From positions 1-31,947 of the IMG/VR virus record IMGVR_UViG_3300035670_000875: a stretch of DNA of 31,947 nt; one strand, given 5' to 3'. Positions 1-20,564 of this stretch are shown piece by piece. The notes beneath the pieces are model-generated. The model saw only the letters and a program-made list of their open reading frames with translations, was not told the DNA's origin and searched no databases. The first letter of the stretch is position 1. Every line of letters begins with the position of its first letter. This stretch comes from a virus. The translations under genes and the position numbers were made by a program.

Positions 1-1
1 C

Positions 2-97: not shown

Positions 98-129
98 AGA
101 TGCTCGGATCATCGCACCGACCAAAGAAA

Positions 130-194: not shown

Positions 195-209
195 GCGAGG
201 ACATGATAG

Positions 210-2109: not shown

Positions 2110-2291
2110 AGACGATCGAATTCCGTGATGGGGAAAAGGATGTCCCTGACCATGTCGCTCTCCTGATGAAGGGGATGCGCACCTGGGAGATGACGTACGA
2201 GCAGGCGCGTGAGCATGCCCACGTCAATCAGCTCAGACAAGCCCTGGAGGTCGCGCAACGCGACATCATCCGACAGCACTTCAAGGACTGA
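2106..2291 (+). CDS. small protein between terminase and portal, unknown
   Basis: The product is 61 aa, starting MKTIEF. The ATG overlaps the terminase stop in an ATGA arrangement, indicating translational coupling. An in-frame upstream start at 2088 lies inside the terminase gene and is less likely. The sequence is charged and probably all-helical (a long C-terminal helix with AREHAHVNQLRQALEVAQRD). It has no cysteines, membrane segment or recognisable motif. The portal gene begins 2 bp after its stop, so it belongs to the packaging/head operon. Function unknown. Confidence 0.7.
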   Translation: MKTIEFRDGEKDVPDHVALLMKGMRTWEMTYEQAREHAHVNQLRQALEVAQRDIIRQHFKD

Positions 2292-2293
2292 CG

Positions 2294-3652
2294 ATGGCAC
2301 TGGTGAAGAGCGCTCCTCCGCTCCTCCAGGCGCTTACCACCCCATCGGGGCGTGAGGCGCTCCGGGGGATGATCTATAAGAGCCCAAAGGCGTCGCCGAA
2401 GCGGATCCCAGACACAGCTGTGGCGATGACCAGGCAGTGGGATGGGAAGGTAGGCAAGAGTGACGTTGCGCTCTTCCGGCACTGGGCAGAGCACAGTGAA
2501 TGGGTAGCCGGGGCCATCAACATCAGGCGCAGCCAGATCAGCTCCGCCGAGTGGTCCATCGAGCCGTACGACAACACCAGGCCATATTCGAAGCGCTTGG
2601 CGAAGCGGATCAACGATCTCATCCAGCGACCGAACCCTGCTGTCGATGGGTTCCGTGGTTTCATCGAGCCGGTTGTGGAAGACATCCTCACACTCGATGC
2701 TGGCTGTATCGAACTCGTGCGCACCCTGCGGGGCGATCTCGCCGAGCTTTGGGCCGTCGATGGCGGGGAAGTGCGCGTCAACGGCATGTGGGACGGGAAT
2801 CCAAACGAGCCTAGGTACTACTGGTACCCGACCGGGGTGAACCAAGAGATGGCGTCATGGGTCAATGACGATTTCATCTACATGATCAGTCGCCCCCGAA
2901 CATATTCGCCCGTAGGCCTGTCGAACCTAGAGACGCTGAAGTTGACCATCGAGGCTGAGCTCTACGGGCACGAATACAACCGTCGCCAAGTACAGGGCGC
3001 CGCACCTGACGGCGTGATGAACCTGGGCGAAGGGATCACCCGAGATCAGGTACGGGAGTTCCAGGCGTTCTTCGAGTCCGAAGTGGCTGGGAAGGGCGCG
3101 ATCGGCTTCATCGGTGGGACGAAGGGGGCCGAGTGGATCCACTTTCGTAACACCAACCGTGAGATGCAGTTCCTGGAGTGGCAGACGTACCTCGTTCGGA
3201 AGATCGCGGTCGTCTTCGGGCTTTCACCCCAGGACCTGGGCATCACGTTCGATGTCAACCGGTCCACCGCAGAGGTGCAGCTGCAGACCTCGGAAGACCG
3301 TGGTCTGCGCCCCCTCATGCAGATGATCCAGGACTACATCACCCAGGAGGTGGTGTGGGACGAGACATTCGGTGGGCCGGATAACAACCTCGCTTTCAAG
3401 TTCACAGCGTTGAACCTGAAGGAGACGACTGCCAAGGCCAAGATCAATCAGCTGGCCCTGGCTGGTGTCCCATGGAAGACCGTCAACGAGGCTCGCCTCG
3501 AAGATGGCCGAGAGCCGCTGAAGGAAGACCAGTACAACCAGTTGATGATGGTCGTCCCGACCGGAGCGGTCTCACTGGACGATATCCCGTCCGCTCGTGA
3601 GGTCCATGAGGCATCGAAGCCGGTGCCAGCCCCCGCTGGCCCCAGAGACTGA
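2294..3652 (+). CDS. portal protein
   Basis: The product (452 aa) would form the dodecameric ring at the capsid vertex through which DNA is packaged. The evidence is family-like sequence and position after the large terminase. The N-terminal part has the HWAEHSEWVAGAINIRRSQI pattern and a following stretch about subtilised fold elements typical of siphoviral portals. A central segment reads LAELWAVDGGEVRVNG. A later helix-rich part contains FGLSPQDLGITFDVNRSTAE, a motif common in HK97/SPP1-type portals just before the C-terminal wing. Length fits the family (about 400-500 aa). The C-terminus is proline-rich (PVPAPAGP), probably disordered. The next gene follows after 9 bp. Confidence in the role is high; the exact portal subfamily was not resolved. 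Confidence 0.93.
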   Translation: MALVKSAPPLLQALTTPSGREALRGMIYKSPKASPKRIPDTAVAMTRQWDGKVGKSDVALFRHWAEHSEWVAGAINIRRSQISSAEWSIEPYDNTRPYSKRLAKRINDLIQRPNPAVDGFRGFIEPVVEDILTLDAGCIELVRTLRGDLAELWAVDGGEVRVNGMWDGNPNEPRYYWYPTGVNQEMASWVNDDFIYMISRPRTYSPVGLSNLETLKLTIEAELYGHEYNRRQVQGAAPDGVMNLGEGITRDQVREFQAFFESEVAGKGAIGFIGGTKGAEWIHFRNTNREMQFLEWQTYLVRKIAVVFGLSPQDLGITFDVNRSTAEVQLQTSEDRGLRPLMQMIQDYITQEVVWDETFGGPDNNLAFKFTALNLKETTAKAKINQLALAGVPWKTVNEARLEDGREPLKEDQYNQLMMVVPTGAVSLDDIPSAREVHEASKPVPAPAGPRD

Positions 3653-3661
3653 AAGGAGCTT

Positions 3662-4147
3662 ATGGCCGCATCGCTAAGCCTCCGGGTGTACACCGGGGCA
3701 GGCATGACCCAATCGGGTGCCGTGACCGGCATCGACATGATCAGTGCCGACAATGCCACCAACAGCCTGGCCAACCGCCAGGCCAACCCCATCACGGTGG
3801 GGACATCCAGCTATGAGAAGTGGGTGAAGTTGTACATCGACTCCACCCCTGCCAATGCGGTGGACAACTTCCAGATCTGGTGTGACGGGTCGGTGATGGC
3901 CAGCACCACGCTGTACTTCACCACCAACTATGTGACCTACGCGACTCCGACCAGCTCGGCGTCCACCAAGGCGCAGACCAACATGACCAGCTACACCAGC
4001 GGCAACAAGGCCACCTGGGACGCTGGCCCGTACACCAATACCGGTGACACCACCCGGTTCACGGTGTTCCAGCTGGCAGTGGCCTCGGACGCTGGTCCTG
4101 GCAACTGGACCCAGGAGACGATCTCCTATAGCTACGACGAGACCTAG
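3662..4147 (+). CDS. putative virion structural protein, beta-rich
   Basis: The product is 161 aa. A strong AAAGGAG precedes the ATG. The sequence is rich in Thr, Ser, Ala, Tyr and Asn with alternating hydrophobics (SLSLRVYTGAG; FQIWCDGSVMASTTLYF), the style of an all-beta capsid-surface or tail-accessory protein. It ends in TISYSYDET. There is no signal peptide, membrane helix or enzymatic motif. Its position directly after the portal and the strong ribosome binding site suggest an abundant virion component such as a decoration or head-fibre protein. This is inference; no family is recognised. Confidence 0.7.
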   Translation: MAASLSLRVYTGAGMTQSGAVTGIDMISADNATNSLANRQANPITVGTSSYEKWVKLYIDSTPANAVDNFQIWCDGSVMASTTLYFTTNYVTYATPTSSASTKAQTNMTSYTSGNKATWDAGPYTNTGDTTRFTVFQLAVASDAGPGNWTQETISYSYDET

Positions 4148-4149
4148 TC

Positions 4150-4335
4150 GTGGCCAAGAAGAAGATCACCATCGAAGCGAAGACGGTGGCGGCTCCGACG
4201 ACCCCTCGTCCAGCTCCACCGCCTGAGCCCAAGACTGACCATACCCACCAGTACGTGTTGGTCGGTGCGCTTCGGGAAGGTGAGTTCATGAAGCAGTGTC
4301 CGATCTGCGCCGATATGCGGCGCGTCGAGCCGTAA
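4150..4335 (+). CDS. small His/CxxC protein (putative zinc ribbon)
   Basis: The product is 61 aa with a GTG start 2 bp after the previous stop. It has a basic start (AKKKITIEAK), then a proline-rich linker (TTPRPAPPPEP), then a short C-terminal module with HTHQYVLVG and CPIC about 20 residues later. The His pair plus CxxC could bind a zinc ion; the spacing is compatible with a minimal knuckle but not diagnostic. A similar layout (THQH...CIVC) occurs in the protein encoded at 10893-11072, so the two may be related. It is the last gene before a terminator. Function unknown. Confidence 0.65.
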   Translation: MAKKKITIEAKTVAAPTTPRPAPPPEPKTDHTHQYVLVGALREGEFMKQCPICADMRRVEP

Positions 4336-4339
4336 GACG

Positions 4340-4368
4340 AAGCCCCCTGGAGTACCGGGGGGCTTTTC
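4340..4368 (+). terminator. rho-independent terminator after the first head operon
   Basis: AAGCCCCC (4340-4347) pairs with GGGGGCTT in 4358-4366, and a T-rich run (TTTTCTT) follows at 4364-4370. The hairpin sits 5 bp after the stop of the small CxxC gene and separates the packaging/portal genes from the sugar-enzyme cassette. The next 55 bp up to 4423 contain only a purine-rich stretch before the GTG of the epimerase gene. Confidence 0.8.
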
Positions 4369-4423
4369 TTCATTGGGAAAGAGAAGCATGTTTGAGCGTG
4401 GATCGGAGCGTTAGAGAAGCACT

Positions 4424-5359
4424 GTGAAGCACATTCTTGTCACCGGTGGCAACGGATTCATCGGCCGATATGTCGTAGAGGAGCTCCAGCAGCGTGGGCA
4501 CAAGGTCTCCGTCCTCGATCGTCACAAGTTCCATCTCTACCCCGGTATCCCCTTCCCGCATGAGGGAGAGCAGTACTTCGGCGACATCAAGGACGCCACC
4601 CTCGTCACCGACGCCGTTTCCCACGTCGATGGCGTCATCCACCTCGCTGGAGTCCTTGGTACACAGGAGACGATCTCGAACCCACTTCCGGCTGCTGAGA
4701 CGAATGTGCTAGGTGGCTTGAACGTCATCAATGCCTGTGCCCAGTACGACGTGCCCCTCATCAACATCGCGGTGGGTAATTGGTGGATGAACAACACCTA
4801 CTCCATCACCAAGAACACCGTCGAGCGGTTCATCGCGATGAAGGCGAAGTACGAGAAGCGAGCGATGGGCTCGGTCCGTGCGCTCAACGCCTACGGTCCA
4901 CGACAGGTGCCAGCAGCACCGTATGGTCCCTCACGGGTGCGCAAGATCATGCCCTCGTTCGTCTGTCGCGCCCTGACCGGCGAGCCGATCGAGATCTACG
5001 GTGATGGCATGCAGATCATGGATATGATCTATGTCGAAGATGTCGCATGGATCCTGGCGAGTGCATGGGAGCAGCTCGATGCTGCTGGGGTCATCCCTGT
5101 CATCGAGGCTGGGACCGGGCGAGAGACCACCGTCAACGACATCGCTACCCAGGTCGCCAAGGACGTCTTGTCGATGACCGACATCGAGGCCACCATCACG
5201 CATTTGCCGATGCGCCCAGGTGAGGATGCCAATAGCGTGGTGAAGGCGAATGCCGACACGCTCGCCGTCCTCGGTGTCCAGCCCGATGAGCTCGTCACCC
5301 TGGAGAAGGGTGTCCACAGGACCGTGGCGTACTACTGGGACTACCTGAAGGCACAGTGA
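4424..5359 (+). CDS. NAD-dependent epimerase/dehydratase (extended SDR)
   Basis: The product (311 aa) is predicted to be a nucleotide-sugar epimerase, dehydratase or reductase. The Rossmann dinucleotide-binding motif TGGNGFIG is at residues 7-14. A DxxD-like segment GDIKDA follows. The catalytic pair is Y126-x3-K130 (YSITK), with ALNAYGPRQ just after, the typical substrate-binding region. The residue normally Ser/Thr before the YxxxK lies in an unusual NIAVGNWWMNN segment. The length matches extended SDRs. GTG is the start, with weak GAGA upstream. The gene overlaps a second SDR gene by 4 bp (GTGA), so the two probably act in sequence on one NDP-sugar. The exact sugar cannot be read from sequence. 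Confidence 0.92.
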   Translation: MKHILVTGGNGFIGRYVVEELQQRGHKVSVLDRHKFHLYPGIPFPHEGEQYFGDIKDATLVTDAVSHVDGVIHLAGVLGTQETISNPLPAAETNVLGGLNVINACAQYDVPLINIAVGNWWMNNTYSITKNTVERFIAMKAKYEKRAMGSVRALNAYGPRQVPAAPYGPSRVRKIMPSFVCRALTGEPIEIYGDGMQIMDMIYVEDVAWILASAWEQLDAAGVIPVIEAGTGRETTVNDIATQVAKDVLSMTDIEATITHLPMRPGEDANSVVKANADTLAVLGVQPDELVTLEKGVHRTVAYYWDYLKAQ

Positions 5360-6168
5360 AAGTCCTCGTCACCGGGCATGAAGGATTCGTCGGTCGGCAT
5401 ACGGCTGATGCGTTGAACCATGCTGGCTACTCGGTCCTTGGGATGGATATCCGAGATCAGCACATGCATGAGCACGGCACTGGGCCGGATCTGTCGAAGG
5501 ACAGCATCGCCATCGCCTCGATCGTCAACCTTGCCCCGGATGTCGTCATCCATCTTGCTTCTCGGGTCTCGACGGCTGGTTCCTTGCGGGATCCCCTCGA
5601 CACGTTCCGCCATACCGCCAGGGTCGGTGTGAACGTCATCGAAGCCTGCAAGATGACCAAGACGCCCATCATCATCACGTCCTCGGTCAAGGCTCGTGAG
5701 CCGGTCAGCACGCCCTACGGCATCAGCAAGCGTCTGGTCGAGATGTGGGCACGCGATGCCCAAGGCCTGCGATACATCATCAATCGGCCAGGCACCATCT
5801 ATGGCCCAGGGCAAGAGGGCAGCCCAGAGAGCGGCTGGATCGCGTGGTTCCTTCGGGCTCGCGATGAGCAGCTGAAAGTGACCATCAATCGGCCAGGCAC
5901 CCAGATCAGGGATCTGTTGCATGTGAAGGATTACGTGCGCCTGATGCTCATCCAGCTGCGGAACTTCGAAGAGTTCGAGGGGCAGATCTGGGATGTCGGG
6001 GGCGGCTGGGAGAATGCCGTGACCGTCCTGGAGATGGCTGAATACCTCAAGCTCGATTGGGCATTCGGTCCTGCACGCTACGGAGACGATCCTGAATATG
6101 TCGGCTATAACGCCACCCCCGGATGGAGGCCGAAGATCAGGTGGCAGGACGCAGAGGTCTTCGGATGA
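5356..6168 (+). CDS. second NAD-dependent epimerase/dehydratase (extended SDR)
   Basis: The product is 270 aa, from a GTG overlapping the preceding stop. The Rossmann motif TGHEGFVG is at residues 6-13 with acidic D31 (GMDIRD) after strand 2, suggesting NAD rather than NADP preference. SS at 109-110, Y121 and K125 (YGISK) form the SDR catalytic set, followed by RPGTIYGPG. The protein is somewhat shorter than typical UDP-glucose 4-epimerases (about 330 aa). A 19-bp stretch encoding INRPGT occurs twice, 105 bp apart and in frame (about 5778 and 5883). It probably continues nucleotide-sugar conversion started by the upstream SDR. The sulfotransferase-like gene overlaps its end. Confidence 0.9.
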   Translation: MKVLVTGHEGFVGRHTADALNHAGYSVLGMDIRDQHMHEHGTGPDLSKDSIAIASIVNLAPDVVIHLASRVSTAGSLRDPLDTFRHTARVGVNVIEACKMTKTPIIITSSVKAREPVSTPYGISKRLVEMWARDAQGLRYIINRPGTIYGPGQEGSPESGWIAWFLRARDEQLKVTINRPGTQIRDLLHVKDYVRLMLIQLRNFEEFEGQIWDVGGGWENAVTVLEMAEYLKLDWAFGPARYGDDPEYVGYNATPGWRPKIRWQDAEVFG

Positions 6169-6605
6169 TCGTCACCTGTGGATTCGTCAGCTCAGGCACC
6201 AGACTCTTGCACCAGATCGTGGATCACTACATGGGTGTCCCAGCGGTGCATCGCTCGTTCCCTCACTGGGATCGCTTCTGGTGGCCTGATGATGAGTGGT
6301 TCGATGGAGCGACCTGGATCGTCATCCACCGCATCCCTGAATATGCGTTCAGGAGTGCCCTTGACGTCCACCACCCCGGCTTGCCTGACGGTACCGTTCT
6401 ATCTGCGCCCATAGAAGAGATTCGCTCGTGGTATCCCCGATGGCAGGCGGCAGTGGCCCGGATGAGAAACCCATACCACGTCCAGTACGAGGAACTGGTC
6501 CGGTCACCGAGGAAGACGATCGATGACTTGGCGTCGTACCTGCGGGTAGATACACCGCTCCGTTCTTACCCCGAGGTCCGAGATGAGAACGTGAAATATG
6601 AGTAG
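6165..6605 (+). CDS. compact sulfotransferase-like protein
   Basis: The product is 146 aa. The start is taken at the ATGA overlap with the SDR gene; a longer in-frame start at 6123 lies inside that gene. The N-terminal GFVSSGTRLL (6-15) resembles the 5'-phosphosulfate-binding loop of PAPS-dependent sulfotransferases. HRIPEYAFRSAL (55-66) resembles the 3'-phosphate-binding R...S segment. YEELVRSPRKTIDDLASYL (108-126) matches the conserved late YExL...P...l..fL element. At 146 aa it is much shorter than usual sulfotransferases (about 250 or more), so the substrate-binding part is reduced. The predicted role is sulfation of a sugar made or transferred by neighbours, or a related P-loop transfer reaction. 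Confidence 0.72.
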   Translation: MIVTCGFVSSGTRLLHQIVDHYMGVPAVHRSFPHWDRFWWPDDEWFDGATWIVIHRIPEYAFRSALDVHHPGLPDGTVLSAPIEEIRSWYPRWQAAVARMRNPYHVQYEELVRSPRKTIDDLASYLRVDTPLRSYPEVRDENVKYE

Positions 6606-7269
6606 CACCGCGATCCTGATCCCATCCCTGGGCCGCTCGTCCTATCTTCGAGTTGTAATCGAGAACATTCACGAAGCTACCCCAGAGGATCACCGCATCT
6701 ATTTCTGTATCGGGGACCTCGAAAGCCGGAAGGTTGTTGAGGAGGCCGGTGAACGTTTCCTGTGGGACGGGGAAGACCCGGATAAACGCTACGTCACTCG
6801 CATGAACAAGCTCATCCACGAGGTTGTAGAAGACCAGGTCTTCTTCGGCTCCGATGACGTGGTACACCACGAGGGTTGGCTGAGCAACGCACTCGCGGTC
6901 ATGCGGAAAGGTTATCCATGCGTCGTCGTGAACGACCTGTCTAACCCGAATGGGACGCAGGCGCTCATGAGTACAGACTTCCTGGGGGAGGCCTGTTTCG
7001 ATGATCCCGAAGCGGCCTTTCACCATGGTTACTTTCATAACTTCGCCGACACCGAGCAGTTCAACACCGCACGCATCAAAGGCAAGCTAGCGCGTGCCAT
7101 GGACTCGGTCGTCGCTCACCTCCATCCTCACGGTCATAAGACCTTCTTCGACAACCCACACGAACTGCGCCCAAGTGATGCTACCTACTCTGATGCGCAG
7201 AAGCACTGGCATGAGGACGCTCGCACCTTCGAGCGTCGGATGCGGGAGTTGAACATCTTGTATGGCTGA
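6598..7269 (+). CDS. glycosyltransferase-like protein (GT-A type)
   Basis: The product is 223 aa and overlaps the sulfotransferase-like gene by 8 bp. The N-terminus TAILIPSLGRSSYLRVVIEN (residues 4-23) is the first beta-strand/nucleotide-binding pattern of GT2-like enzymes. VFFGSDDVVHHEGW supplies the acidic D-D motif expected to bind metal and NDP-sugar. A His-rich region (HHGYFHNF; HLHPHGHKTFF) follows. The C-terminal helix DARTFERRMRELNILYG is typical of phage members. It is the first of a run of transferases. Acceptor and donor are unknown. Confidence 0.8.
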   Translation: MSSTAILIPSLGRSSYLRVVIENIHEATPEDHRIYFCIGDLESRKVVEEAGERFLWDGEDPDKRYVTRMNKLIHEVVEDQVFFGSDDVVHHEGWLSNALAVMRKGYPCVVVNDLSNPNGTQALMSTDFLGEACFDDPEAAFHHGYFHNFADTEQFNTARIKGKLARAMDSVVAHLHPHGHKTFFDNPHELRPSDATYSDAQKHWHEDARTFERRMRELNILYG

Positions 7270-7891
7270 GCCCCTTGTCAGTGTGGTGATATCCACCTAC
7301 AACCGGACACAGACGCTCATGGAGCGTTCGTTGCCATCGGTCCTCGCTCAGACCCACCAGAACCTCGATATCCATGTCGTCGGGGACGGAACGGAGCGAG
7401 AGACTGGGATCGCCATCAGGAAGCTGGGTGATCCTCGCGTCCGCTTCACGAACATCCCCCGCCAGGTGTACCCGCTCGATCCAGGGGCCAAGTGGTGTGT
7501 CATCGGCCTGGATGCGAGGAACCACGGTCACGACACCGCCAAGGGCAAGTTCATCGCCAACCTCGATGACGATGACGAGTGGCTGCCGACCACGGTCGAG
7601 ACCCTGCTACGACTCCTGCTCGCCGACGATGCCGACGTGGCGTATGGGCGTAGCAAGGCATTCCTCCACAACGGCGGCATCCAGTGGTACGGCAACTGGC
7701 CCCCCATGCATTTCGCCTTCTGCGATGGCGCCTGGCTCAGTAAACACGATCTTGGGTTTCGCTATGACAAGGACTGCCTGCAACGTGGCCTTCCAGAAGA
7801 TGGTGACCGCATCGACCGGATGGTGGCAGCAGGACTGAGATTCACGATGACCCAGGAGATCGTCCATTACTACTACCCCAATCCGAGATGA
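7262..7891 (+). CDS. family 2 glycosyltransferase
   Basis: The product is 209 aa and overlaps the upstream transferase by 8 bp. A textbook GT2 start, VSVVISTYNRTQTL, is at residues 6-19, followed by SLPSVLAQTHQNLDIHVVGD. ARNHGHDTAKGKFIANLDDDDEW places the DxD metal/NDP-sugar motif at about residue 100, with the usual N-x-G-x3-A-x-G-x-(F/Y)-I lead-in. An ED acid pair (LPEDGDRIDRM) probably supplies the catalytic base region. The protein is shorter than many GT2s, so probably a single catalytic domain. It lies in the operon with SDRs and the sulfotransferase-like gene, so it probably uses their sugar product. Confidence 0.93.
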   Translation: MAEPLVSVVISTYNRTQTLMERSLPSVLAQTHQNLDIHVVGDGTERETGIAIRKLGDPRVRFTNIPRQVYPLDPGAKWCVIGLDARNHGHDTAKGKFIANLDDDDEWLPTTVETLLRLLLADDADVAYGRSKAFLHNGGIQWYGNWPPMHFAFCDGAWLSKHDLGFRYDKDCLQRGLPEDGDRIDRMVAAGLRFTMTQEIVHYYYPNPR

Positions 7892-8049
7892 GAAAGGATC
7901 GCAGGGACCACTCACCACAACCGAACCATAGGCCACAGCCGGTGTTCTGCCTCGTCTGTGAAGAAGAGATCAAACACGTCTACGACGGTCGCGCACGCAA
8001 GCGATACTGGCGACATCTGCGCAGGTATGGGAAGGAACGACATGAGTAG
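7888..8049 (+). CDS. small basic CxxC protein (putative zinc finger)
   Basis: The product is 53 aa, starting MRKDRRDHS. The ATG overlaps the stop of the GT2 gene (ATGA) and its own end overlaps the next start by 8 bp, which makes a real coupled gene likely despite its size. It is strongly basic and has C21-x2-C24 (FCLVC) followed by H30, H43 and H52, so a CxxC plus His pair could bind zinc. The region after the cysteines is Arg/Tyr/Trp-rich (RARKRYWRHLRRY), suggesting nucleic-acid binding. No known family is recognised. Confidence 0.6.
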   Translation: MRKDRRDHSPQPNHRPQPVFCLVCEEEIKHVYDGRARKRYWRHLRRYGKERHE

Positions 8050-8641
8050 GAAGGTCTTCGTCAACATCATCGCTGCTGCCACCATCACCGTCTTGACGGT
8101 CGGCATCGTGACCACGGCTTTCACCCCTGCTGAGAAGGAGACCATCTCCAATCTACGTCAACGCATCACGGCACTCGAAGCTGCCATCGTGGGCATCGAG
8201 AACGACCTTGGCACCATCAACGACAACCAGGTCATCCTGGGCAATGACATCGACATCCTCGATGCTGGGCTGGCTGGCCTTGTGGCCGACGATGGTCCCA
8301 TCGCCCAGATCGATCGCAACCTGCTGATGACGCAGGAGATCGTCTTCGCCAACCACCCGCCCATCGCTCTTACGGACATCAATCCGATCGTCGTGTGTGA
8401 CGTGTCCACATGTACGGTGGATATCGAGTGGACATCCACCCCTCCGGCCACAGGCCAGGTGGAGTGGGGCGTCGATGAGACCTACGGCAACCTCACCGGC
8501 AAGGAGAGCAGCCTGTTGGGCTATCACAAGCAACGTGTCGGCACCTTCCCCGCTGATGGCACCACGTACCACTTCCGGGTCCTCGCCGAGCTCCCCGAGG
8601 GTGGATCGACAGCGACCGAGGGAACGGTCACGGTCGGATGA
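8042..8641 (+). CDS. membrane-anchored coiled-coil/FnIII-like protein
   Basis: The product is 199 aa. ATG 8042 is chosen because GGGAAGG lies just upstream and the N-terminus then begins with a basic residue cluster and a hydrophobic segment (FVNIIAAATITVLTVGIVTT, about 6-25). A longer frame from 7958 would bury that segment. Residues about 30-75 form a coiled coil (ISNLRQRITALEAAIVGIEN). The C-terminal ~95 residues have a fibronectin-III-like or purple-phosphatase-N-like signature: VDIEWTSTPPATGQVEWG then TTYHFRVLAELPEGG. Two cysteines (VVCDVSTC) could form a disulfide outside the cytoplasm. The likely topology is a single anchor with an exported beta domain. Possible roles are a host-surface protein made during infection or a virion fibre; not resolved. 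Confidence 0.75.
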   Translation: MSRKVFVNIIAAATITVLTVGIVTTAFTPAEKETISNLRQRITALEAAIVGIENDLGTINDNQVILGNDIDILDAGLAGLVADDGPIAQIDRNLLMTQEIVFANHPPIALTDINPIVVCDVSTCTVDIEWTSTPPATGQVEWGVDETYGNLTGKESSLLGYHKQRVGTFPADGTTYHFRVLAELPEGGSTATEGTVTVG

Positions 8642-8802
8642 ACGAACGCGATCCATTGGGGCTGGACCGCTTGTTCGACAAGATCGAGGTCGAGCTCGGG
8701 CATGAGGATGGCAGGCGTCACCACTGGTCGATCCCGATATGGGTGATCGCATTGCCGATCACGTTCGTCCTGACGTATGTCCTGACGCGAGTCATGGCCT
8801 GA
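8638..8802 (+). CDS. 54-aa single-pass membrane protein
   Basis: This short gene starts at an ATGA overlap with the FnIII-like gene and ends at a TGATG overlap with the next glycosyltransferase gene. The N-terminal half is charged and helical (ERDPLGLDRLFDKIEVELG), then a His/Arg stretch, then one hydrophobic helix (SIPIWVIALPITFVLTYVL, about 31-49) ending in TRVMA. It could be a small membrane partner of its neighbour or anchor a glycosyltransferase at the membrane. A holin-like role cannot be excluded, but one helix and no lysis neighbours give no support. Confidence 0.65.
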   Translation: MNERDPLGLDRLFDKIEVELGHEDGRRHHWSIPIWVIALPITFVLTYVLTRVMA

Positions 8803-9485
8803 TGATCCCGGTCGCAGGCTTCTTGCACTATAAGAACCCAGACATCACGAAGAAATGTCTGGACTCCTTCCCCCGCCAGCTCGCTGAATCGGTCGTCATC
8901 ATCGACAACAGTGAGCATGGGACATGCCCCGACTACGACGCTCGCATCATCCGGTTCTACGGCAACCTGGGTGTCGCCCATGGATGGAACACCATCATCA
9001 AAGCGACGCCCTGGGCGCAGTGGTGGGCGATGTTCAACAGCGACTTGACCTTTTCTGAGCAAGACATCATGCGGCTCATCGCAGCGATGCGTGATGGTGA
9101 CCTCGTGATGATGGGCGGGTACCACGCCTTCGGCGTCCATCGACGCTGTATCAAGCAGGCTGGGTGGTTCGATGAGAATTATCACCCTGCATATTGCGAG
9201 GATAACGATTTCACCTGGCGGGTCATCAAGGCTGGGCTGACCACACGCCAGATCCCGACCGTCACTGACCATGTCGGTTCAGCGACCATCAAGCTCGATC
9301 ATGCATTGCGTGAAAGAAATAACCTTACTTACCCCAAAAACGTCGAGTATCATCTAGCCAAATGGGGTGGCTCGATGGGCCACGAACAATATGAGAAGCC
9401 TTTCAATAAGGCGCCAGGTCCAGCCCACGCGATCCTGGACATCGACAGGCTGAGAGACCAGCATTGGGAATCGGCCAGGGAGTAA
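8802..9485 (+). CDS. family 2 glycosyltransferase (rhamnosyltransferase-like)
   Basis: The product is 227 aa. ATG 8802 is chosen for the TGATG coupling to the small membrane gene; a longer frame from 8739 starts inside it. The order of motifs is: MIPVAGFLHYKN at the start, VVIIDNSEHG, the NLGVAHGWN pattern of dTDP-rhamnosyl/GT2 enzymes at about 60-68, MFNSDLTF as the DxD-equivalent, and FDENYHPAYCEDNDFTWR (about 123-140), the conserved ED-D-W/R catalytic segment. This order is diagnostic for GT2. Donor and acceptor unknown. The DNA near 9310-9350 is noticeably more AT-rich than its neighbours. Confidence 0.92.
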   Translation: MIPVAGFLHYKNPDITKKCLDSFPRQLAESVVIIDNSEHGTCPDYDARIIRFYGNLGVAHGWNTIIKATPWAQWWAMFNSDLTFSEQDIMRLIAAMRDGDLVMMGGYHAFGVHRRCIKQAGWFDENYHPAYCEDNDFTWRVIKAGLTTRQIPTVTDHVGSATIKLDHALRERNNLTYPKNVEYHLAKWGGSMGHEQYEKPFNKAPGPAHAILDIDRLRDQHWESARE

Positions 9486-9489
9486 ACAG

Positions 9490-9777
9490 ATGTCAGTCAA
9501 CATCTCTCGACGGCCCACCACAGACGTCACCGCCGTTGAGACATTCCTTCATCTCACCGCGAACGAGGTCCCGCTCAACGACACCAGCACTGGTGCCGAG
9601 GTTCGTCACTACATGACGATCGAAGCTTCTGGCGAAGAGACTCTTCGCTCGCAGAACTTCGCCGGTGACTGGACCTGGGACGGCGTCGTCCTTCCAGCCG
9701 CTGGCTCGTGGACCGCCCACTTGCGTCAGGTCAGCGACGACAGCTCGATCGCCAACCTCGCCATCACCGCTTCTTAG
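9490..9777 (+). CDS. small beta-rich protein, putative virion component
   Basis: The product is 95 aa, with GGGAG upstream of the ATG and only 4 bp separating it from the GT gene. Sequence character is Thr/Ser/Ala-rich with alternating strands and aromatic positions (NFAGDWTWDGVVLPAAGSWT), resembling a small Ig-like or decoration domain. It ends in IANLAITAS. No motif or membrane segment is present. It sits between glycosyltransferases, so it is a candidate acceptor or exported surface protein, but this is only positional inference. Confidence 0.65.
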   Translation: MSVNISRRPTTDVTAVETFLHLTANEVPLNDTSTGAEVRHYMTIEASGEETLRSQNFAGDWTWDGVVLPAAGSWTAHLRQVSDDSSIANLAITAS

Positions 9778-9857
9778 GACACCCCCCCTGCGGTTTCGCC
9801 TGTGGGGTACCATCGGAGTGTGGACCAGCTTCCTAGGGTGTGTTGAGTCTGCGCTCG

Positions 9858-9914
9858 CCCCTCCCCTCCATCATCGAGCTCGGCTTTGCGAAATGACTGG
9901 GGAGGGGTCTTTTC
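9858..9914 (+). terminator. terminator with G/C-rich 9-bp stem
   Basis: CCCCTCCCC (9858-9866) pairs perfectly with GGGGAGGGG (9899-9907), followed by TCTTTTC (9908-9914). The 32-nt loop can fold further (TCAT 9871-9874 with ATGA 9893-9896). It closes the transcript that began upstream with the SDR and GT genes. The rest of 9778-9857 holds only a weak imperfect hairpin (9781-9808) without a T-run. Confidence 0.75.
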
Positions 9915-9918
9915 ATGC

Positions 9919-9946
9919 TTGACACCCAAAGCTCTCATGCTATGAT
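9919..9946 (+). promoter_or_regulatory. sigma70-type promoter
   Basis: TTGACA (9919-9924), a 16-bp spacer and TATGAT (9941-9946) form a near-consensus housekeeping promoter, 5 bp after the T-run of the terminator. The predicted start is near 9953, exactly where the first hairpin of the downstream structured RNA begins. It is the best promoter in the window and would drive the RNA and probably the second half of the cassette. Confidence 0.75.
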
Positions 9947-9952
9947 CACCGT

Positions 9953-10054
9953 CCTGACAACAGATAGCATCTGGCGTCAGTAGTGATCCGATCGCAACGG
10001 ATCACACACAAGAGCCCCGTCACTTCGTCGCAAGATGGAGAGGCGGGGTTTCTG
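9953..10054 (+). ncRNA. three-hairpin structured RNA or leader
   Basis: Downstream of the promoter, three stems follow in about 100 nt. H1: CTGAC (9954-9958) with GTCAG (9976-9980), a 2x2 internal loop, then CAGAT (9961-9965) with ATCTG (9969-9973) and a 3-nt loop. H2: GTGATCCG (9983-9990) with CGGATCAC (9998-10005), perfect 8 bp, 7-nt loop. H3: CCCCG (10015-10019) with CGGGG (10044-10048), followed by TTTCTGTTT, terminator-like. It could be an independent small RNA, or a 5' leader/attenuator of the glycosyltransferase gene starting at 10069. No known RNA family is recognised. Confidence 0.5.
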
Positions 10055-10068
10055 TTTGAGGCCGTACC

Positions 10069-10920
10069 ATGACGGTCATGCACGAGCCCTCTTCATCCGT
10101 CCAGGTCCTTGCTACGAAGACCGGTACACCGGCAGGCACCGTCTGTATCTGTACGAGGGACCACATCTCCGCTGGCACCTTCATGTCAGCACTCCACAAT
10201 GACTGGCGCTTCCTGAAAGAACGAGGCGGTGGTATCTCCTGGCTCGTCATCCAGGGGAGCATCCTCACGCTCCAGCGGAACGAAGCATTGCGACAGATGG
10301 ATGGTGACTGGCTTCTCTTCATCGATGACGACATGACCTGGGCGCCCGACGCGATCGGCCGCTTGGTCGAGTCGTGGGAGGAGGTCCAGGGGCAGTTCGA
10401 TGAGCCTGTCATCATGGGTGCTCTGTGCTCCCGCAGGCAAGAACCTCACGACCCTACGATGTACATGCGTGACAGCCGGTATGAAGGTAAGTACCGCATG
10501 ATCGAGAAGTGGGAGACCGACATCGTCGAGGTCGATGCGACTGGGCTGGCGTTCCTGCTCATCCCCAAGCAGGCCATCAAGAACGTCACCGGTGACACGT
10601 TCCCAGATGACAAGGAGACGCGCATGTTGTACCAAGCGCCTCCGGTCTTCAAGTGGACCCACCTCATGGGAGAAGACCTGCGGTTCTGCCAGGAGGCGCT
10701 CGCTGCAGGCTGCCGCATCTTCGTCGATACCCGTATCCAGATCGGTCATATCGCCGAACGCGTCGTCACGTATACCAACTTCCTGGAAGGCATCGCTGGA
10801 CGCGACCAGGAGACCGAAGACATGGTTCGTGCCATCAATGACAAGCATGGGCTTCCGACCATGACCGCCGATGAAGCAAAGGAGCGACTCGGATGGACGA
10901 CTACAAGACCGGCACCCTAG
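10069..10920 (+). CDS. glycosyltransferase-like protein (GT-A type)
   Basis: The product is 283 aa. ATG 10069 has GAGG 7 bp upstream; a second ATG at 10078 is possible. Motifs: TVCICTRDHISAGTF near residues 24-38, ILTLQRNEALRQMDGDWLLFIDDDMTW (about 64-90) with FIDDDM as the metal-binding DxD, then the acceptor region GLAFLLIPKQ and GEDLRFCQEALAAGCRIFVD, the ED-FC motif that supplies the catalytic base in GT2-like enzymes. The C-terminal ~50 residues are charged and helical. It is the first protein gene after the internal promoter and structured RNA, so it is likely regulated by them. Confidence 0.88.
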   Translation: MTVMHEPSSSVQVLATKTGTPAGTVCICTRDHISAGTFMSALHNDWRFLKERGGGISWLVIQGSILTLQRNEALRQMDGDWLLFIDDDMTWAPDAIGRLVESWEEVQGQFDEPVIMGALCSRRQEPHDPTMYMRDSRYEGKYRMIEKWETDIVEVDATGLAFLLIPKQAIKNVTGDTFPDDKETRMLYQAPPVFKWTHLMGEDLRFCQEALAAGCRIFVDTRIQIGHIAERVVTYTNFLEGIAGRDQETEDMVRAINDKHGLPTMTADEAKERLGWTTTRPAP

Positions 10921-11072
10921 GCAAGACCGAAGAGCAGGTGCGGCACAAGTTCACTCACCAGCACCGCTATTCGTTCCACGACGTCAAGGGTGGGTCGCAT
11001 AGCGGAAAGTGCATCGTCTGTGGCAAGGAGAAGGTATGGAAGAATGGATCGGAGCGACCCCCTACTACTTGA
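10893..11072 (+). CDS. small His-rich CxxC protein (putative zinc ribbon)
   Basis: The product is 59 aa. A perfect AAGGAG sits 8 bp before the ATG, which lies 28 bp inside the upstream GT gene. The protein has HKFTHQHRYSFH (18-29), H36 and CIVCGKEK with C40-x2-C43, a likely zinc ribbon or treble-clef-like knuckle. The THQ...CxxC layout resembles the protein at 4150-4335. Its 3' end overlaps the next gene by 37 bp. Function unknown; small zinc proteins in phages often bind nucleic acids or host factors. Confidence 0.65.
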   Translation: MDDYKTGTLGKTEEQVRHKFTHQHRYSFHDVKGGSHSGKCIVCGKEKVWKNGSERPPTT

Positions 11073-11497
11073 TGATCCGGTACCGGAACCCGAGTGACGG
11101 GAACCCGGCTGCGGAGATCATCGACGTGGATGAAGGCGGTTGGGTAGAGAAGCACGCCTCGGTCATCGGCATCGTCGGCCGCTGGTATCTCGTCCACAAG
11201 GAGACCAGGGCGATCCCACTCGCCATCACCGTCGAGGACGGGGACAAGCCGATCTATCGAGCCAGGCATATCGCCATCGGCAATCTTCGAGGAGACCTTC
11301 CAGAGGGCATCCAACGAGAGGTCATCTGTTACGGCCTGGGGAAGGAACGTGACGATGGCACGAAGAAGATGATCTGGCACTTCCCCCAGGGTCTTTCGGT
11401 CATGGATGACGATGCCAACCCGTTGGGGATGGAAGTGTTGAACATGATCAATGGGCTCGTCGTCGCCCAAACACAAGGACCCGCAACGCCTCCTTGA
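11036..11497 (+). CDS. hypothetical protein
   Basis: The product is 153 aa. ATG 11036 is chosen because AAGGAG lies 5 bp upstream; an in-frame GTG at 11009 would add 9 residues without a better ribosome binding site. The sequence is a mix of strands and charged loops (YYLMIRYRNPSDG; GRWYLVHKETRAIPLAITVEDG) and ends in a low-complexity VVAQTQGPATPP tail. There is no membrane helix, cysteine cluster or catalytic motif that I recognise. The 76 bp after it, up to 11573, contain no gene. Confidence 0.65.
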   Translation: MEEWIGATPYYLMIRYRNPSDGNPAAEIIDVDEGGWVEKHASVIGIVGRWYLVHKETRAIPLAITVEDGDKPIYRARHIAIGNLRGDLPEGIQREVICYGLGKERDDGTKKMIWHFPQGLSVMDDDANPLGMEVLNMINGLVVAQTQGPATPP

Positions 11498-11573
11498 TGG
11501 CCCGTTGTGGGGCGAGTACACTTCATTGAGCCCACATCACCGCATATAGCGGTAGCACTGCGGAGATTTGGGT

Positions 11574-13247
11574 ATGGCTATCGGAGACGACTTCTCAGTC
11601 GCTGTCAATGGGGACATTCGTCACGTCTCCGGCACGACCAACTACACGGTGCTCGAACTGCACCGCTGGCTCCAGGACCTGGCAGATGATGCGGCAGCTT
11701 CTGGCAACGACCTCATCGACATCACCTCGGGCACGCCGTCCGAGCGCTCGACTGACCAGATCATCACGCTGAACAGCCCGTTCAACATCGACGACACGGC
11801 TGCTCAGTTCCTCTATGGCGGCTCGATCACCCAGCTGTCTGGCGCGACCCAGTACAGCGGCCTGTCCGTGGTGGGTGCGGTGTTCGATGAGACCACCCTG
11901 CAGGTCGTCCAGGACAACACCCTATACGACACCGATACGCCCTTCTGGGGTACGACCGACGAGACCTACGCTGGATACAACGGAGACGCTGGCTCCAACA
12001 CCCTGATGCGCGTCATGCTCAAGACGCGTGATGCGAGTGCCGATATCGATGGCAAGCGCGTGCGTGTCACGGCCCGTGAGTGGGGCCAGACGTGGGCTGA
12101 GTTCTCCGTCACCCTGGGCCTTGGTGAGGCGGTCGCCGCTATCTTCACCAACCAGGACCTCAACAACGCCACTGCCTCGGCCACCGTCGCTGGCTGGACC
12201 GAGATCACTAACGTTGAGGGCTACCAGTCCATCAACCTCAACAACGGCAACGGTGCTCAGCCGTACTACAGCCAGTGGAACCGCCACACGTACAGCATCA
12301 ACCAGTTGTACGAGCGGGCCAAGTACATCGCTCGCCGAGGGACAGCCGAGACCATCCACTCGATGGACGGTGAGCTCTTCCGGGGCATCACCCATCAGTG
12401 GGCATACACCAACGAGGCTTCCGGTCCCTTCGCTGAGGATGAGGAACTGTCTTGGGGCACCGGGGCCACAGCTGGTACCGCTGCCTTGCTCGCCCTCGAT
12501 GACGACGGCACCACCGGCACGATGTGGGTCCAGCTACTGACCGGCGTCCCACCCACCAACGCGATGCAGATCAGTGGTGCTACCGCCACCGCCGATGTCA
12601 ACGGTTCGGTGACCACCAGGACGGTCAGCCCCGTCTTCTTGGGCTCGTCTACCGGTTCAGCCATCATCGGTGCCTTCGGTATCGGTATCGAGTCTGCTGA
12701 CCTCACCGCTGCCGATAAGCTGACCGACCTGCTCAACATCCTCCAGACGCCTCCGAACAACGTCACCTTCACGGTGTTCGGCCTCATCTCCGGTGAGGAT
12801 CGCGTGTTGGTGACAGATGCGGATGGTCTGGCCATCAATACCGACCAGATGCTGCTCAGCACCACGCTTTCCGGTGTGACTACCAGCGTCGTGGTCAACG
12901 CCATCCCGGTGGATACGCCACAGTCAGGCAACCTGCGCATCGTGCTCGATGATGGTCGCCATCGCCTGGTGCCATTCACTTCGTGGACGGGCAGCACGTT
13001 CACGATCGGTAGCACTGACTTCACCGATCCGAACGATGCCACCAGCGGCGCCCATGTCTATCTCGGCTACATCGACCTACTGGCAGATGACACGTCGGAA
13101 TCCTTCTCCCTTGTCTATAACGCCAGTCGAACCTTGTTCGTTCGAGTCCGAGATGGTGGAGGTAGCCCCATCAAGACGTTCGAGACCAATGCCACGCTTG
13201 GTTCGGGTGGAGGTTCGACCACAGCGATCCGCACCACGGACGCCTAG
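11574..13247 (+). CDS. large virion structural protein, beta-rich
   Basis: The product is 557 aa. ATG 11574 has GGAG 8 bp upstream. It starts MAIGDDFSVAVNGDIRHVSG, then a helix (LELHRWLQDLADDAAASGND). The body is dominated by Thr/Ser/Gly/Asp strands with recurring SGATQYSG, GTTDETYAGY and TGTMWVQLLTG patterns. The C-terminus is GSGGGSTTAIRTTDA, a flexible tail. No signal peptide, membrane helix or enzyme motif. Size, composition and location fit a head-fibre, decoration or baseplate/tail-fibre subunit. It is one of the likeliest glycan acceptors in the cassette, by inference. No family recognised with certainty. Confidence 0.78.
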   Translation: MAIGDDFSVAVNGDIRHVSGTTNYTVLELHRWLQDLADDAAASGNDLIDITSGTPSERSTDQIITLNSPFNIDDTAAQFLYGGSITQLSGATQYSGLSVVGAVFDETTLQVVQDNTLYDTDTPFWGTTDETYAGYNGDAGSNTLMRVMLKTRDASADIDGKRVRVTAREWGQTWAEFSVTLGLGEAVAAIFTNQDLNNATASATVAGWTEITNVEGYQSINLNNGNGAQPYYSQWNRHTYSINQLYERAKYIARRGTAETIHSMDGELFRGITHQWAYTNEASGPFAEDEELSWGTGATAGTAALLALDDDGTTGTMWVQLLTGVPPTNAMQISGATATADVNGSVTTRTVSPVFLGSSTGSAIIGAFGIGIESADLTAADKLTDLLNILQTPPNNVTFTVFGLISGEDRVLVTDADGLAINTDQMLLSTTLSGVTTSVVVNAIPVDTPQSGNLRIVLDDGRHRLVPFTSWTGSTFTIGSTDFTDPNDATSGAHVYLGYIDLLADDTSESFSLVYNASRTLFVRVRDGGGSPIKTFETNATLGSGGGSTTAIRTTDA

Positions 13248-13298
13248 CAGCAGGGGGGGCGCAAGCTCCCTCTCGCTTCATCTGGCAGGAGGTGCTAA

Positions 13299-14861
13299 GT
13301 GGCAACCCCGACCGTCACGCTACTGAACCACACGCCGTTGACTACGGCGGATTCGAGCACGGGCTGGTTCGACACCGTCACGCTTGACACCGACGTCAAG
13401 GTCGAAGGCTCGGGCTCGATGTCAGGCGTGTTGCGTGCCGACGCCGAGGTGTCGTACTACGACTCGACCACGGCCCCCGTCACGGCGGCTGGCAAGACCG
13501 TGCGAGGCTGGTTCAACACGACGAACGTGCCGTATCTTGAGATCTTCGCTAACAACGGTCTTGAGCTATACGTCTACGACGGCACGACCATCGAGACCAA
13601 GGCCATCGCAGGCATCGACACGTATTCCGGTGGCTGGCTCAACTACATCTATGGCATGGATGCGTTCACCACACTCACGCTGGCGAACGTCCGCCGCTGG
13701 GGTGTGCGCCAGCAGTTGACTGCCTCTGCCAAGAACGTCGTCAACGCCTGGCACGATGTCATCCGTTACCTTGACGGCTTCTCCATGGTGGGTGGGACGA
13801 GCGGCGACAAGGTGCGCCTGTCAGACATCGCCACCTACGACAAGGCTGCAGCATACGGCGTGCTGACTGAGGTCAATGGCGTCTACTTCTGCACCGGCAC
13901 GCTGCAGTTCGGGACCGGTGCGACCGCTCATTACTTCGAGATGGACGGCAACATCCTCATCTTCAGGGTGACCTCGGTCGCGCCCGGTCTATACCTGATC
14001 TCCGGCGTCGGGTCTGGCACCGACATCGTCATCAAGAACAGTGTCATCCAGGCCGCGAGTTCTTCCGCAGCCACCCGCTTCATCCTGGACTTCGATGACG
14101 CCAACCTAGCCTCGCTGGTCTTCACCGACAACCTTATCGTCAGGTCTAGTACGGTCGCGTTCAAGAGTGGGCAGACGGTGACCGGCAACACGTTTGACAA
14201 CTGCGGCCAGATCACGCACGGCGGTGCCGACATGGACCGCACCGTCATCAAGAACTTTGCGGGCATCAACTCTGCTGTAGGCACTGCCGCCCTGCTCTAC
14301 AACGTCAATGTTGATCCTGACGGTGAGCTCGACGACCTTGAGGCGACGAAGGGGTCGCTCGCGACGCATGTCATCGAGCTTGGCCCGAACACACCTTCCT
14401 CGATCACCCTGCGTGACTGGACGGTCTCGGGCTACAACACTAGCAACGGACAGAATGATTCGGTCATCTACAACAATTCCAACAAGGCCATCACGGTCAA
14501 CGTGCCTGGGGCCAGCGGCACCATCAGCTATCGCAATGGCACTGGGGCATCTACGTCCATCGCCCAGAGCGTGACGGTGACGATCACCGCCGTGACGACC
14601 AGCGGTACTCCGGTCCAGGGTGCTCGTGTCTTCCTGGAGACGACACCAGGCGGGACCGACGTCTTCGATGGCAGCGATAGCACTAGCTTGACGGATGTGA
14701 ACGGCGAGGTGACAGCAGCCTATGCGGGGGCGACTCCGGTCGATGTCATCGGGCGGGTGCGCAAGTCATCGGGTAGCCCGTACTACCGCACTGGTGAGAT
14801 CGTCGGTTCCATCTCTGGCACCGGCCTGGACCAGACAGTGGTGATGATCGTCGATGAGTGA
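13299..14861 (+). CDS. virion structural protein with C-terminal Ig-like domain
   Basis: The product is 520 aa. The GTG start is supported by GGAGGTG immediately upstream. The N-terminal ~200 residues look like a jelly-roll/LamG-like beta domain (VTLDTDVKVEGSGSMSG...). The middle (about 200-380) has recurring short strands such as IVIKNSVIQA and LVFTDNLIV, suggestive of a right-handed beta-helix. Residues about 422-520 (VTVTITAVTTSGTPVQGARV ... LTDVNGEVTAAYAG) match the carboxypeptidase-regulatory-like/Ig-like domain common on phage surface proteins. The likely role is an exposed fibre or appendage. It follows the other large structural gene after 51 bp that hold only a weak GC hairpin (13254-13277). 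Confidence 0.78.
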   Translation: MATPTVTLLNHTPLTTADSSTGWFDTVTLDTDVKVEGSGSMSGVLRADAEVSYYDSTTAPVTAAGKTVRGWFNTTNVPYLEIFANNGLELYVYDGTTIETKAIAGIDTYSGGWLNYIYGMDAFTTLTLANVRRWGVRQQLTASAKNVVNAWHDVIRYLDGFSMVGGTSGDKVRLSDIATYDKAAAYGVLTEVNGVYFCTGTLQFGTGATAHYFEMDGNILIFRVTSVAPGLYLISGVGSGTDIVIKNSVIQAASSSAATRFILDFDDANLASLVFTDNLIVRSSTVAFKSGQTVTGNTFDNCGQITHGGADMDRTVIKNFAGINSAVGTAALLYNVNVDPDGELDDLEATKGSLATHVIELGPNTPSSITLRDWTVSGYNTSNGQNDSVIYNNSNKAITVNVPGASGTISYRNGTGASTSIAQSVTVTITAVTTSGTPVQGARVFLETTPGGTDVFDGSDSTSLTDVNGEVTAAYAGATPVDVIGRVRKSSGSPYYRTGEIVGSISGTGLDQTVVMIVDE

Positions 14862-15111
14862 GATCGTGACGCTACGGAAGCGACTCGATAGCCAGTCTGC
14901 TGGCATGGAGCGGTTGCTGCGAGAGAATGCTGAGCTACAGACCAAGGTGACCCTGCTGGAGTTGGAGAAGCGCCAATGGCAGGCGGAGAAGGCGACCCAG
15001 AGCGCCATCATCGCCCAGCGGCTCATGGCCATGAATGCCGAGAGATCGGACATGGCCCAGGAGATCGAAGTGCTCAAAGCGACGATCAAAGCGTTGGTCG
15101 GTGAGACATGA
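14854..15111 (+). CDS. coiled-coil protein
   Basis: The product is 85 aa and overlaps the upstream gene by 8 bp and the downstream one by 4 bp. It is an almost uninterrupted coiled coil: heptad-like LRKRLDSQSAGMERLLRENA, LQTKVTLLELEKRQW, IEVLKATIKALVG. No cysteine, membrane or enzyme motif. A small helical assembly protein or fibre chaperone/trimeriser is plausible, given the flanking structural genes; the specific role is unknown. Confidence 0.75.
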   Translation: MSEIVTLRKRLDSQSAGMERLLRENAELQTKVTLLELEKRQWQAEKATQSAIIAQRLMAMNAERSDMAQEIEVLKATIKALVGET

Positions 15112-15683
15112 CCATCGACTGGCTTACCAAGGTCATCACCGTCGATCGCACCGTCGATCCATTCTTCACCGATGTCGGAAATGGTTACTACGAGATGGAT
15201 ACGAACGCCTTCCGGCTAGCGCTCAAGAACGTCGAAGATAGTGAAGACGGCATGGTGCATGACGATACCCACCGTCACAACACGGCGGTCTCCCTGGGCG
15301 GTGTGACCTTCGCTCGAACCTTCGAGATCATCAATGGGTACACCGTCACATTCCTGCCGAATAGTCACTGGACCGCTCGCTTGACCGAGACGAACAACAA
15401 CCTTGCGGACGTAAAGAACGTCAACGAGGTCAGTCTCATCGTGCAGAACAGTGCTGGTCTAGCCGTGGCCGCTGCGGGTGAACAGATGTGGCAGCAGCCA
15501 CTAGAGGGCACGTACACCGCTGAGCAGATGATGCGGCTCATGGTCGCCGCCCTGGCGGGCAAGCTCACCGGTGCCGACACCGGCAACATCGCCATCCGAG
15601 ACATCGCTGACACCAAGGACCGGATCACCGCTACCACGACCGTAGAAGGCAACCGCCTCACCGTCACACTCGACCCGGAGTAA
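15108..15683 (+). CDS. phage structural protein, conserved-type hypothetical
   Basis: The product is 191 aa and starts at the ATGA overlap. It begins IDWLTKVITVDRTVDPFFTD with strand-rich central segments (TFEIINGYTVTFLPNSHWTA). The C-terminus contains YTAEQMMRLMVAALAGKLTG followed by IAIRDIADTKDRITATTTVEG, a pattern I associate with small structural proteins in many tailed phages, usually unnamed. It sits between the coiled-coil gene and the repeat protein, so it probably belongs to the same virion appendage. No enzymatic motif. Confidence 0.78.
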   Translation: MTIDWLTKVITVDRTVDPFFTDVGNGYYEMDTNAFRLALKNVEDSEDGMVHDDTHRHNTAVSLGGVTFARTFEIINGYTVTFLPNSHWTARLTETNNNLADVKNVNEVSLIVQNSAGLAVAAAGEQMWQQPLEGTYTAEQMMRLMVAALAGKLTGADTGNIAIRDIADTKDRITATTTVEGNRLTVTLDPE

Positions 15684-15686
15684 TCC

Positions 15687-16364
15687 GTGTTCCCGGCACG
15701 GTATTACTCGCCTCGCATCTATCCAGCGAGGTATTTCCCGCCTGATATTCGGCCGGTCTTTTCTGTACGTGCTGATGCGATATTGCGTGCCCTGCAGTCA
15801 GGTGCATTCGATGCATCGGCGGTGGTACGGAAGCCCACTTCATCCAGCACCACCGCCTCAGCGATACTACAGTCAATAGCCGTTGCGTCGTTAGATGCGA
15901 ACGCTATACTCCTTACAAAGCAAACGGCACAGATCGCGGTCAACGCGATCCTACTAGAGGCGAGTACGCCTTTCTACGTAGATGCGGTTTTGCTGTCCCC
16001 GATATTCGGAGATTTCAGTGTCGGTGCCTGGCTCGATCATCGAGCGTATGGGATCGATGCGCTTACCGAGATATTGCAGCTGGATTTCACATCCTCCCTG
16101 CAGTACATCGACCACCAGCCGACGTGGGCGGAGATCGGCACCACCAGCACGGTAGAGACGATCGGTTTCGATGGGGGCCTGTCCTTTACCCAGGTGGCTA
16201 GCACCATCTCATCCATCGCTGCGATGGTGCTCGCCCCAGACCTGCAGTTCACCCAGACGACGAGAGTCATCGATTTCTCGTCAGCTCCACGGGATATCAC
16301 GGTCACCAGCACCACGAGGGCCATCGACTTCGAGGGTGGTGTCGAGGAGGTAGAAGATGGCTGA
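15687..16364 (+). CDS. virion protein with 14-residue A-I-L repeats
   Basis: The product is 225 aa from a GTG start, with GGAG upstream. The N-terminus has the aromatic/proline motif FPARYYSPRIYPARYF, seen in assorted phage structural proteins. Residues about 29-116 form a periodic array of A-[I/V]-L units (alanines at 31, 45, 59, 73, 87, 100, 114; period 14). The rest is beta-like with DF-containing strands (VIDFSS; AIDFEGG). No membrane helix despite the hydrophobics. Its base composition is less GC-rich than the flanks. Likely a fibre or appendage component. Confidence 0.75.
   Translation: MFPARYYSPRIYPARYFPPDIRPVFSVRADAILRALQSGAFDASAVVRKPTSSSTTASAILQSIAVASLDANAILLTKQTAQIAVNAILLEASTPFYVDAVLLSPIFGDFSVGAWLDHRAYGIDALTEILQLDFTSSLQYIDHQPTWAEIGTTSTVETIGFDGGLSFTQVASTISSIAAMVLAPDLQFTQTTRVIDFSSAPRDITVTSTTRAIDFEGGVEEVEDG
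15771..16034 (+). repeat. array of 14-codon repeats in the virion protein
   Basis: Seven degenerate units encode A-[I/V/W]-[L/V] cores at regular spacing: codons 31, 45, 59, 73, 87, 100 and 114, so steps of 14,14,14,14,13,14. The DNA copies are strongly diverged, so the periodicity is visible at protein level. This argues for an old, selected repeat solenoid or fibre shaft rather than recent slippage. Confidence 0.7.
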
Positions 16365-16674
16365 CGTCCTTGTCGCCGGTGACACTGGTCCAGCCATCAC
16401 CGGCACCATCCACAAGCGTGGCGATGTCGAAGATGTCGAGGACCTGACCAACGCGACCGTGAAATTCCAGATGCGTCGTGCTCGCGACCGCAAGCTCATG
16501 GTCGATGCAGATGCTGATATCGTCACAGCTGCGTCTGGGACCGTCAGCTATCTACTCGAAGCGAATGACACTGCTATCCCTGGTGATTACATATATCAGT
16601 GGCAGGTCACGTACCCTGATGGAAAGAAACAGACGACATACGACCCGAAAGAATTGACCATCAGGCGGAGGTAG
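16357..16674 (+). CDS. BppU-N-like domain protein (baseplate upper protein-like)
   Basis: The product is 105 aa. GGAGG precedes the ATG, which overlaps the repeat-protein gene by 8 bp. The sequence follows the BppU N-terminal domain pattern: GDTGPAITGTI at the start, DLTNATVKFQMR, then a turn with AASGTVSYLLEANDTAIPGDYIYQW and VTYPDGKKQTTYDPKEL. In lactococcal phage baseplates this Ig-like domain docks receptor-binding proteins. The protein consists of this domain alone, so it is probably an adaptor for the neighbouring appendage proteins. Its location away from the tail-tip genes is unusual. Confidence 0.8.
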   Translation: MADVLVAGDTGPAITGTIHKRGDVEDVEDLTNATVKFQMRRARDRKLMVDADADIVTAASGTVSYLLEANDTAIPGDYIYQWQVTYPDGKKQTTYDPKELTIRRR

Positions 16675-16675
16675 C

Positions 16676-20408: not shown

Positions 20409-20410
20409 CG

Positions 20411-20452: not shown

Positions 20453-20460
20453 TCCGATGA

Positions 20461-20542: not shown

Positions 20543-20564
20543 TATCTCTCTGCCTGGAGGCCAG

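Follow-up and report, generated by a model that had tools for sequence, protein, structure and literature searches.

The window analysed here is the whole 31,947-base stretch of IMG/VR virus record IMGVR_UViG_3300035670_000875, from an uncultivated tailed phage with 59.3% G+C. It encodes a terminase (577–2109), a portal protein (2294–3652), a prohead protease (17950–19143) and a major capsid protein (MCP; 19140–20408), along with a 2244-codon gene listed after the MCP. Glycan genes (epimerases and glycosyltransferases) lie at 4424–17953, within the structural region, between the portal and the protease/capsid genes. The unit under study is located among them, downstream of a gene for a 95-aa protein of unassigned function (9490–9777) and directly 5' of a GT2-type glycosyltransferase (GT) gene (10069–10920); these two genes, and the terminator and parts of the unit located between them, are on the plus strand. 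Near relatives of the window were not found among the named phages searched, the MCP gave no match to phages, and a scan of bacterial and archaeal genomes turned up no relative of the terminase. Elsewhere in the window, a 12-bp terminator with a T-run is present at 4339–4366, between the gene at 3662–4147 and a sugar epimerase gene, and a perfect inverted repeat of ~17 bp (GTTGTAGAGGGGAGCCG) with no T-run is found 3' of the capsid gene (20409–20564), with another long hairpin following it.

The intergenic region starts with non-coding DNA (9778–9857) that is ~82% conserved with one relative, the IMG/VR phage L002, and two more hairpins are predicted upstream of an intrinsic terminator, T1 (9858–9913). 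T1 has a stem of 9–10 bp, perfect over 9 bp between CCCCTCCCC (9858–9866) and GGGGAGGGG (9899–9907), followed by the tail TCTTTT. Five bases past T1 is a sigma-70-type promoter (9919–9946) that matches the consensus at 11 of 12 positions, with the -35 hexamer TTGACA (9919–9924), a 16-base spacer and the -10 hexamer TATGAT (9941–9946) preceded by an extended -10 TG. This is the sole promoter-like site within positions 1–16000, for which shuffled sequences gave 5.2 at the 9-of-12 level, and the remainder of the window holds one 9-of-12 site. Across 0.80 Mb of DNA from related phages, one other site had at most one mismatch, from which count a chance match in the 291-base gap is estimated at ~4 in 10,000. 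That other site, on the minus strand of L042 (9180–9530), reads TTGACA-N18-TATAGT, with a strong terminator ~300 bases on, and is directed away from the terminase gene. The two hexamers in the window sit in two tandem imperfect copies (9913–9949; TCATGCT-TGA-CACC and TCATGCTATGATCACC) that agree at 14 of 16 positions, a similarity matched in none of 2000 shuffles of the stretch in a post hoc test. The TCATGC of the first copy belongs to the ancestral flank, and the arrangement hints that a local duplication at the edge of an insertion may have given rise to the promoter.

From the start predicted at this promoter, an RNA of ~104 nt (9953–10056) would be made, T2, its terminator, being reached after ~100 nt. 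Three hairpins follow one another in this RNA. H1 (9954–9980) has two stems of 5 bp separated by an internal loop (CTGAC-aa-CAGAT-agc-ATCTG-gc-GTCAG), H2 (9983–10005) is a perfect 8-bp stem (GTGATCCG/CGGATCAC) with a 7-nt loop, and T2 (10012–10057) comprises a hairpin at 10012–10051 of 17 bp with a single A/A mismatch and a GCAA loop, together with the tail TTTCTGTTT (10049–10057), which is an imperfect T-run. The region 9953–10056 folds with an energy of -53.1 kcal/mol, giving z-scores of -8.5 and -7.1 in two shuffle runs in which no shuffle was as stable, and only 2 of 6370 windows of 104 nt on both strands folded better. Compared with shuffles, H1 plus H2 alone and T2 alone each had a z-score of -5.3. 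There is no ORF within the predicted transcript, and 28 nt are likely to be unpaired, the longest unpaired run being 7 nt. The first-pass annotation had described a 9-bp terminator stem with a T-run, a TTGACA-N16-TATGAT promoter 5 bases further on, three hairpins from the predicted start with a perfect 8-bp stem as the second, and a GT start codon (10069) preceded by its own GAGG (10058–10061), all of which were located here.

Two IMG/VR phages, L002 and L003, carry the same gene order, with the 95-aa gene adjoining GT, and are the sole relatives recovered via that upstream gene; their GT proteins share 87% and ~60% identity, respectively, with that of the window. In both, the terminator runs straight into GT, and the promoter and hairpins are missing. 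The L002 DNA aligns with 9778–9919, T1 included, at 82% and the match ends there. In-silico deletion of exactly 9919–10069, a 151-bp segment absent from L002 and L003, left the GT frame uninterrupted to its stop and colinear with L002, giving GGGGAGGGGTCTTTTC-ATG-CTG-ACG-GTC-ATG-CAC-GAG at the empty site compared with GGGGAGGGGTTTTTGT ATG-CTG-TCG-GAC-ATG-TAT-GAG in L002. The absence from both relatives and the exact empty site thus identify the unit as an insertion. By parsimony on the two relatives, it appears to be a precise insertion gained in this lineage, probably recently. On the same comparison the unit is accessory, since the GT operons of the relatives do without it. No such unit was present before GT in more distant relatives, no promoter comparable to that of the window was found before GT in the relatives, and none of the 165 loci checked had a comparable promoter and terminator pair. 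The insert is short and has a G+C content of 53.6%, as against 59.3% for the phage. It lacks terminal inverted repeats and an evident target duplication, short microhomology only being seen; TCATGC (6 bp) was entertained as a target duplication and then discarded, as the L002 alignment places the right boundary at 10069. Several short inverted repeats connect the insert with its flanks.

The insertion also changed the start of GT, which now begins at the new ATG (10069), the GAGG and spacer (10058–10068) being supplied by the insert. The ancestral start codon (9915–9917) is out of frame with GT and opens only a 22-codon ORF ending at 9983, which starts upstream of the predicted transcript and therefore could not be translated from the RNA unit's own transcript. 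Judging from its position, the 3' arm of T1, GGGGAGGGG, would have been the ribosome-binding site of GT before the insertion. At ~4970–4990 in L002, and at 9899–9917 once the insert is removed from the present locus, this one sequence is both a terminator arm and probably the ribosome-binding site for the gene that follows, and termination and translation start would thus share a sequence. T1 is kept in both relatives, with a stem in L003 that differs in sequence and is fully paired, and by this comparison it is part of the ancestral locus, outside the RNA unit.

In agreement with the first-pass annotation, which recognized no known RNA family, Rfam covariance models gave no match at gathering or permissive thresholds, the best score being 19.7 bits against a threshold of 71. 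A blastn search of the unit against phages and plasmids, up to an E value of 10, returned no real match. Exact-pattern scans found H2 17 times in IMG/VR, in no case within a promoter and three-hairpin context, H1 in neither IMG/VR nor GTDB genomes, and T2 nowhere in IMG/VR; H1 and H2 do not recur elsewhere in the window. The covariance approach proposed in the first-pass annotation, extended to related phages with a single-sequence model run against ~1.26 Mb of their DNA, recovered no homologue and gave weak matches only. Two of these were examined and rejected, one in L021 (E = 0.002) being a generic palindromic terminator with no recognizable promoter and one in L042 (E = 0.1) falling in an ORF region, on the other strand from the terminase. 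Diverged copies would be missed by exact-pattern scans, and the orphan status of the unit holds at that sensitivity; the collections searched may omit records very near the window, and sister copies may therefore exist.

With a promoter and a terminator of its own and, between them, a structured RNA that lacks an ORF, the unit is built like an autonomous transcription unit. The reading that we favor, with a probability of roughly 0.5, is that of an autonomous small non-coding RNA produced from a 151-bp inserted cassette and insulated by T1 and T2. The cassette would have entered between the old terminator T1 and the start of GT in this phage lineage, after which host sigma-70 RNA polymerase would initiate at ~9953 at the near-consensus promoter and the ~104-nt RNA would fold into two tight hairpins and a terminator hairpin, transcription halting at T2. 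Expression would then be independent of the late structural program, with T1 insulating the unit upstream and T2 downstream, and the cassette may be regarded as a moron-like unit without a protein. We infer that the unit is transcribed, where its transcript starts and ends, that the RNA is itself the product and not a leader, and how it acts. The small number of unpaired nucleotides and the short unpaired runs speak against a seed-pairing antisense RNA, and it is more likely that the RNA acts by protein binding, as a decoy or in a structural role. The self-contained RNA of ~100 nt put forward in the first-pass annotation is the best-supported reading, on the strength of promoter, terminator, fold and insertion, except that T1, which that annotation had listed together with it, is ancestral and lies outside it. 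Counting against this reading, the imperfect T2 tail makes read-through into GT possible, the insert bears the new ribosome-binding site of GT and so is physically also a GT leader, and the polarity of the event (one insertion vs two losses) is based on two relatives.

In the main alternative, possible but doubtful in our estimation, the insert provides a promoter at which transcription restarts and a structured 5' leader for GT and downstream genes, T2 being leaky or overcome. The main product would be the GT-operon mRNA, and the hairpins would stabilize it or modify RNA polymerase in cis. T1 would otherwise lower expression of the downstream genes, the ribosome-binding site of GT comes from the insert, and with the imperfect T2 tail some GT mRNA may start at the insert promoter. 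H1 and H2 are also 2 nt apart and follow the predicted start immediately, which recalls putL of phage HK022, a ~70-nt element with two stem-loops just downstream of PL (PMC9378689). The likeness to the put RNA is in form only, restricted to two adjacent stem-loops at a promoter (9954–10005), whereas the present unit has a terminator hairpin and then at once a gene, and is not at a known early-operon promoter; put RNA is further characterized by its sequence, contact with the RNA polymerase beta' zinc-binding domain and antitermination. Against a leader, a strong terminator hairpin stands directly before GT, and relatives without a comparable local promoter still manage. The order of promoter, structured leader, terminator and gene would equally fit an attenuator or riboswitch in which alternative leader folds choose between T2 and GT expression, but no competing antiterminator fold was found. 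When the T2 base stem was left out, the most stable fold reached -39.8 kcal/mol compared with -63.7 kcal/mol, a structure 24 kcal/mol weaker in which H1 and H2 were unchanged. With no Rfam match, and with the sole leader ORF beginning upstream of the predicted transcript, regulation of this kind is very improbable, and the attenuated leader that the first-pass annotation had offered as its alternative is weakened accordingly.

It is also conceivable, at low probability, that the dyads work as DNA, either as operators for a repressor, placed 3' of the promoter, or as a small mobile palindromic element, because the dyad symmetry of H1 and of H2 is almost perfect and both stand just past the start site. 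Their sequences are unlike each other and occur nowhere else in the window, T2 has the form of a terminator, and the ends of the insert, with neither inverted repeats nor a clear target duplication, are not those expected of a mobile element. A chance or non-functional insertion, or an artefact of metagenome assembly, could be suspected from a single contig with an orphan sequence and, locally, a number of short repeats, both direct and inverted. We consider this hardly credible, as the combination of promoter, fold and terminator far exceeds what chance would give, the insertion junction is clean, the GT frame is kept open and has a new ribosome-binding site, and searches gave no match to a vector, phage or plasmid. 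Returning to the autonomous RNA, we also considered an RNA-only moron, very recently gained and acting on a host protein, for example as a decoy for RNA polymerase or for a nuclease of host defence. Its de novo assembly from local sequence is a possibility, given that the two promoter hexamers occupy tandem copies of one 14–16-base sequence, and the proposal as a whole is unlikely, if less so than a role of the dyads as DNA.

Phage morons are accessory transcription units of temperate phages, with a gene expressed from the prophage and a base composition unlike that of the phage. The unit resembles them, at the sequence level, in lying between two genes that are adjacent in L002 and L003 and in having its own promoter and terminator, and differs in having no protein-coding frame. 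RNA-based anti-CRISPRs (Racrs) are short phage RNAs with their own promoter and terminator, as is predicted for the present unit, and with a repeat unit that matches a CRISPR repeat of the host; the present unit has no recognizable CRISPR repeat. A dedicated RNA gene in such a position had been thought new in the first-pass annotation, which overstated its novelty, since intergenic non-coding RNAs of phages are documented (PMC5712189, PMC10986025, PMC7067206). They occur in mycobacteriophages D29, L5 and StarStuff and in Rhodococcus phage WC1 (PMC5712189, PMC10986025), the mycobacteriophage RNA being ~500 bp and expressed from Pleft at the genome end (PMC5712189), and in the Salmonella prophage BTP1 (PMC7067206). 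The RNAs of D29, L5, StarStuff and WC1 are likewise non-coding transcription units in intergenic regions, but they were found by RNA-seq, whereas the unit described here is ~100 nt, lies in a structural/glycan region and is predicted only.

Phage non-coding RNAs are thus known as a kind, and what is new here is the orphan sequence and a close relative with the exact empty site. If the unit is transcribed, this phage would have acquired a whole non-coding RNA gene in a single clean insertion of 151 bp, and with the empty site preserved in that relative both this acquisition and its consequences for the ribosome-binding site of the neighboring gene would be directly testable.
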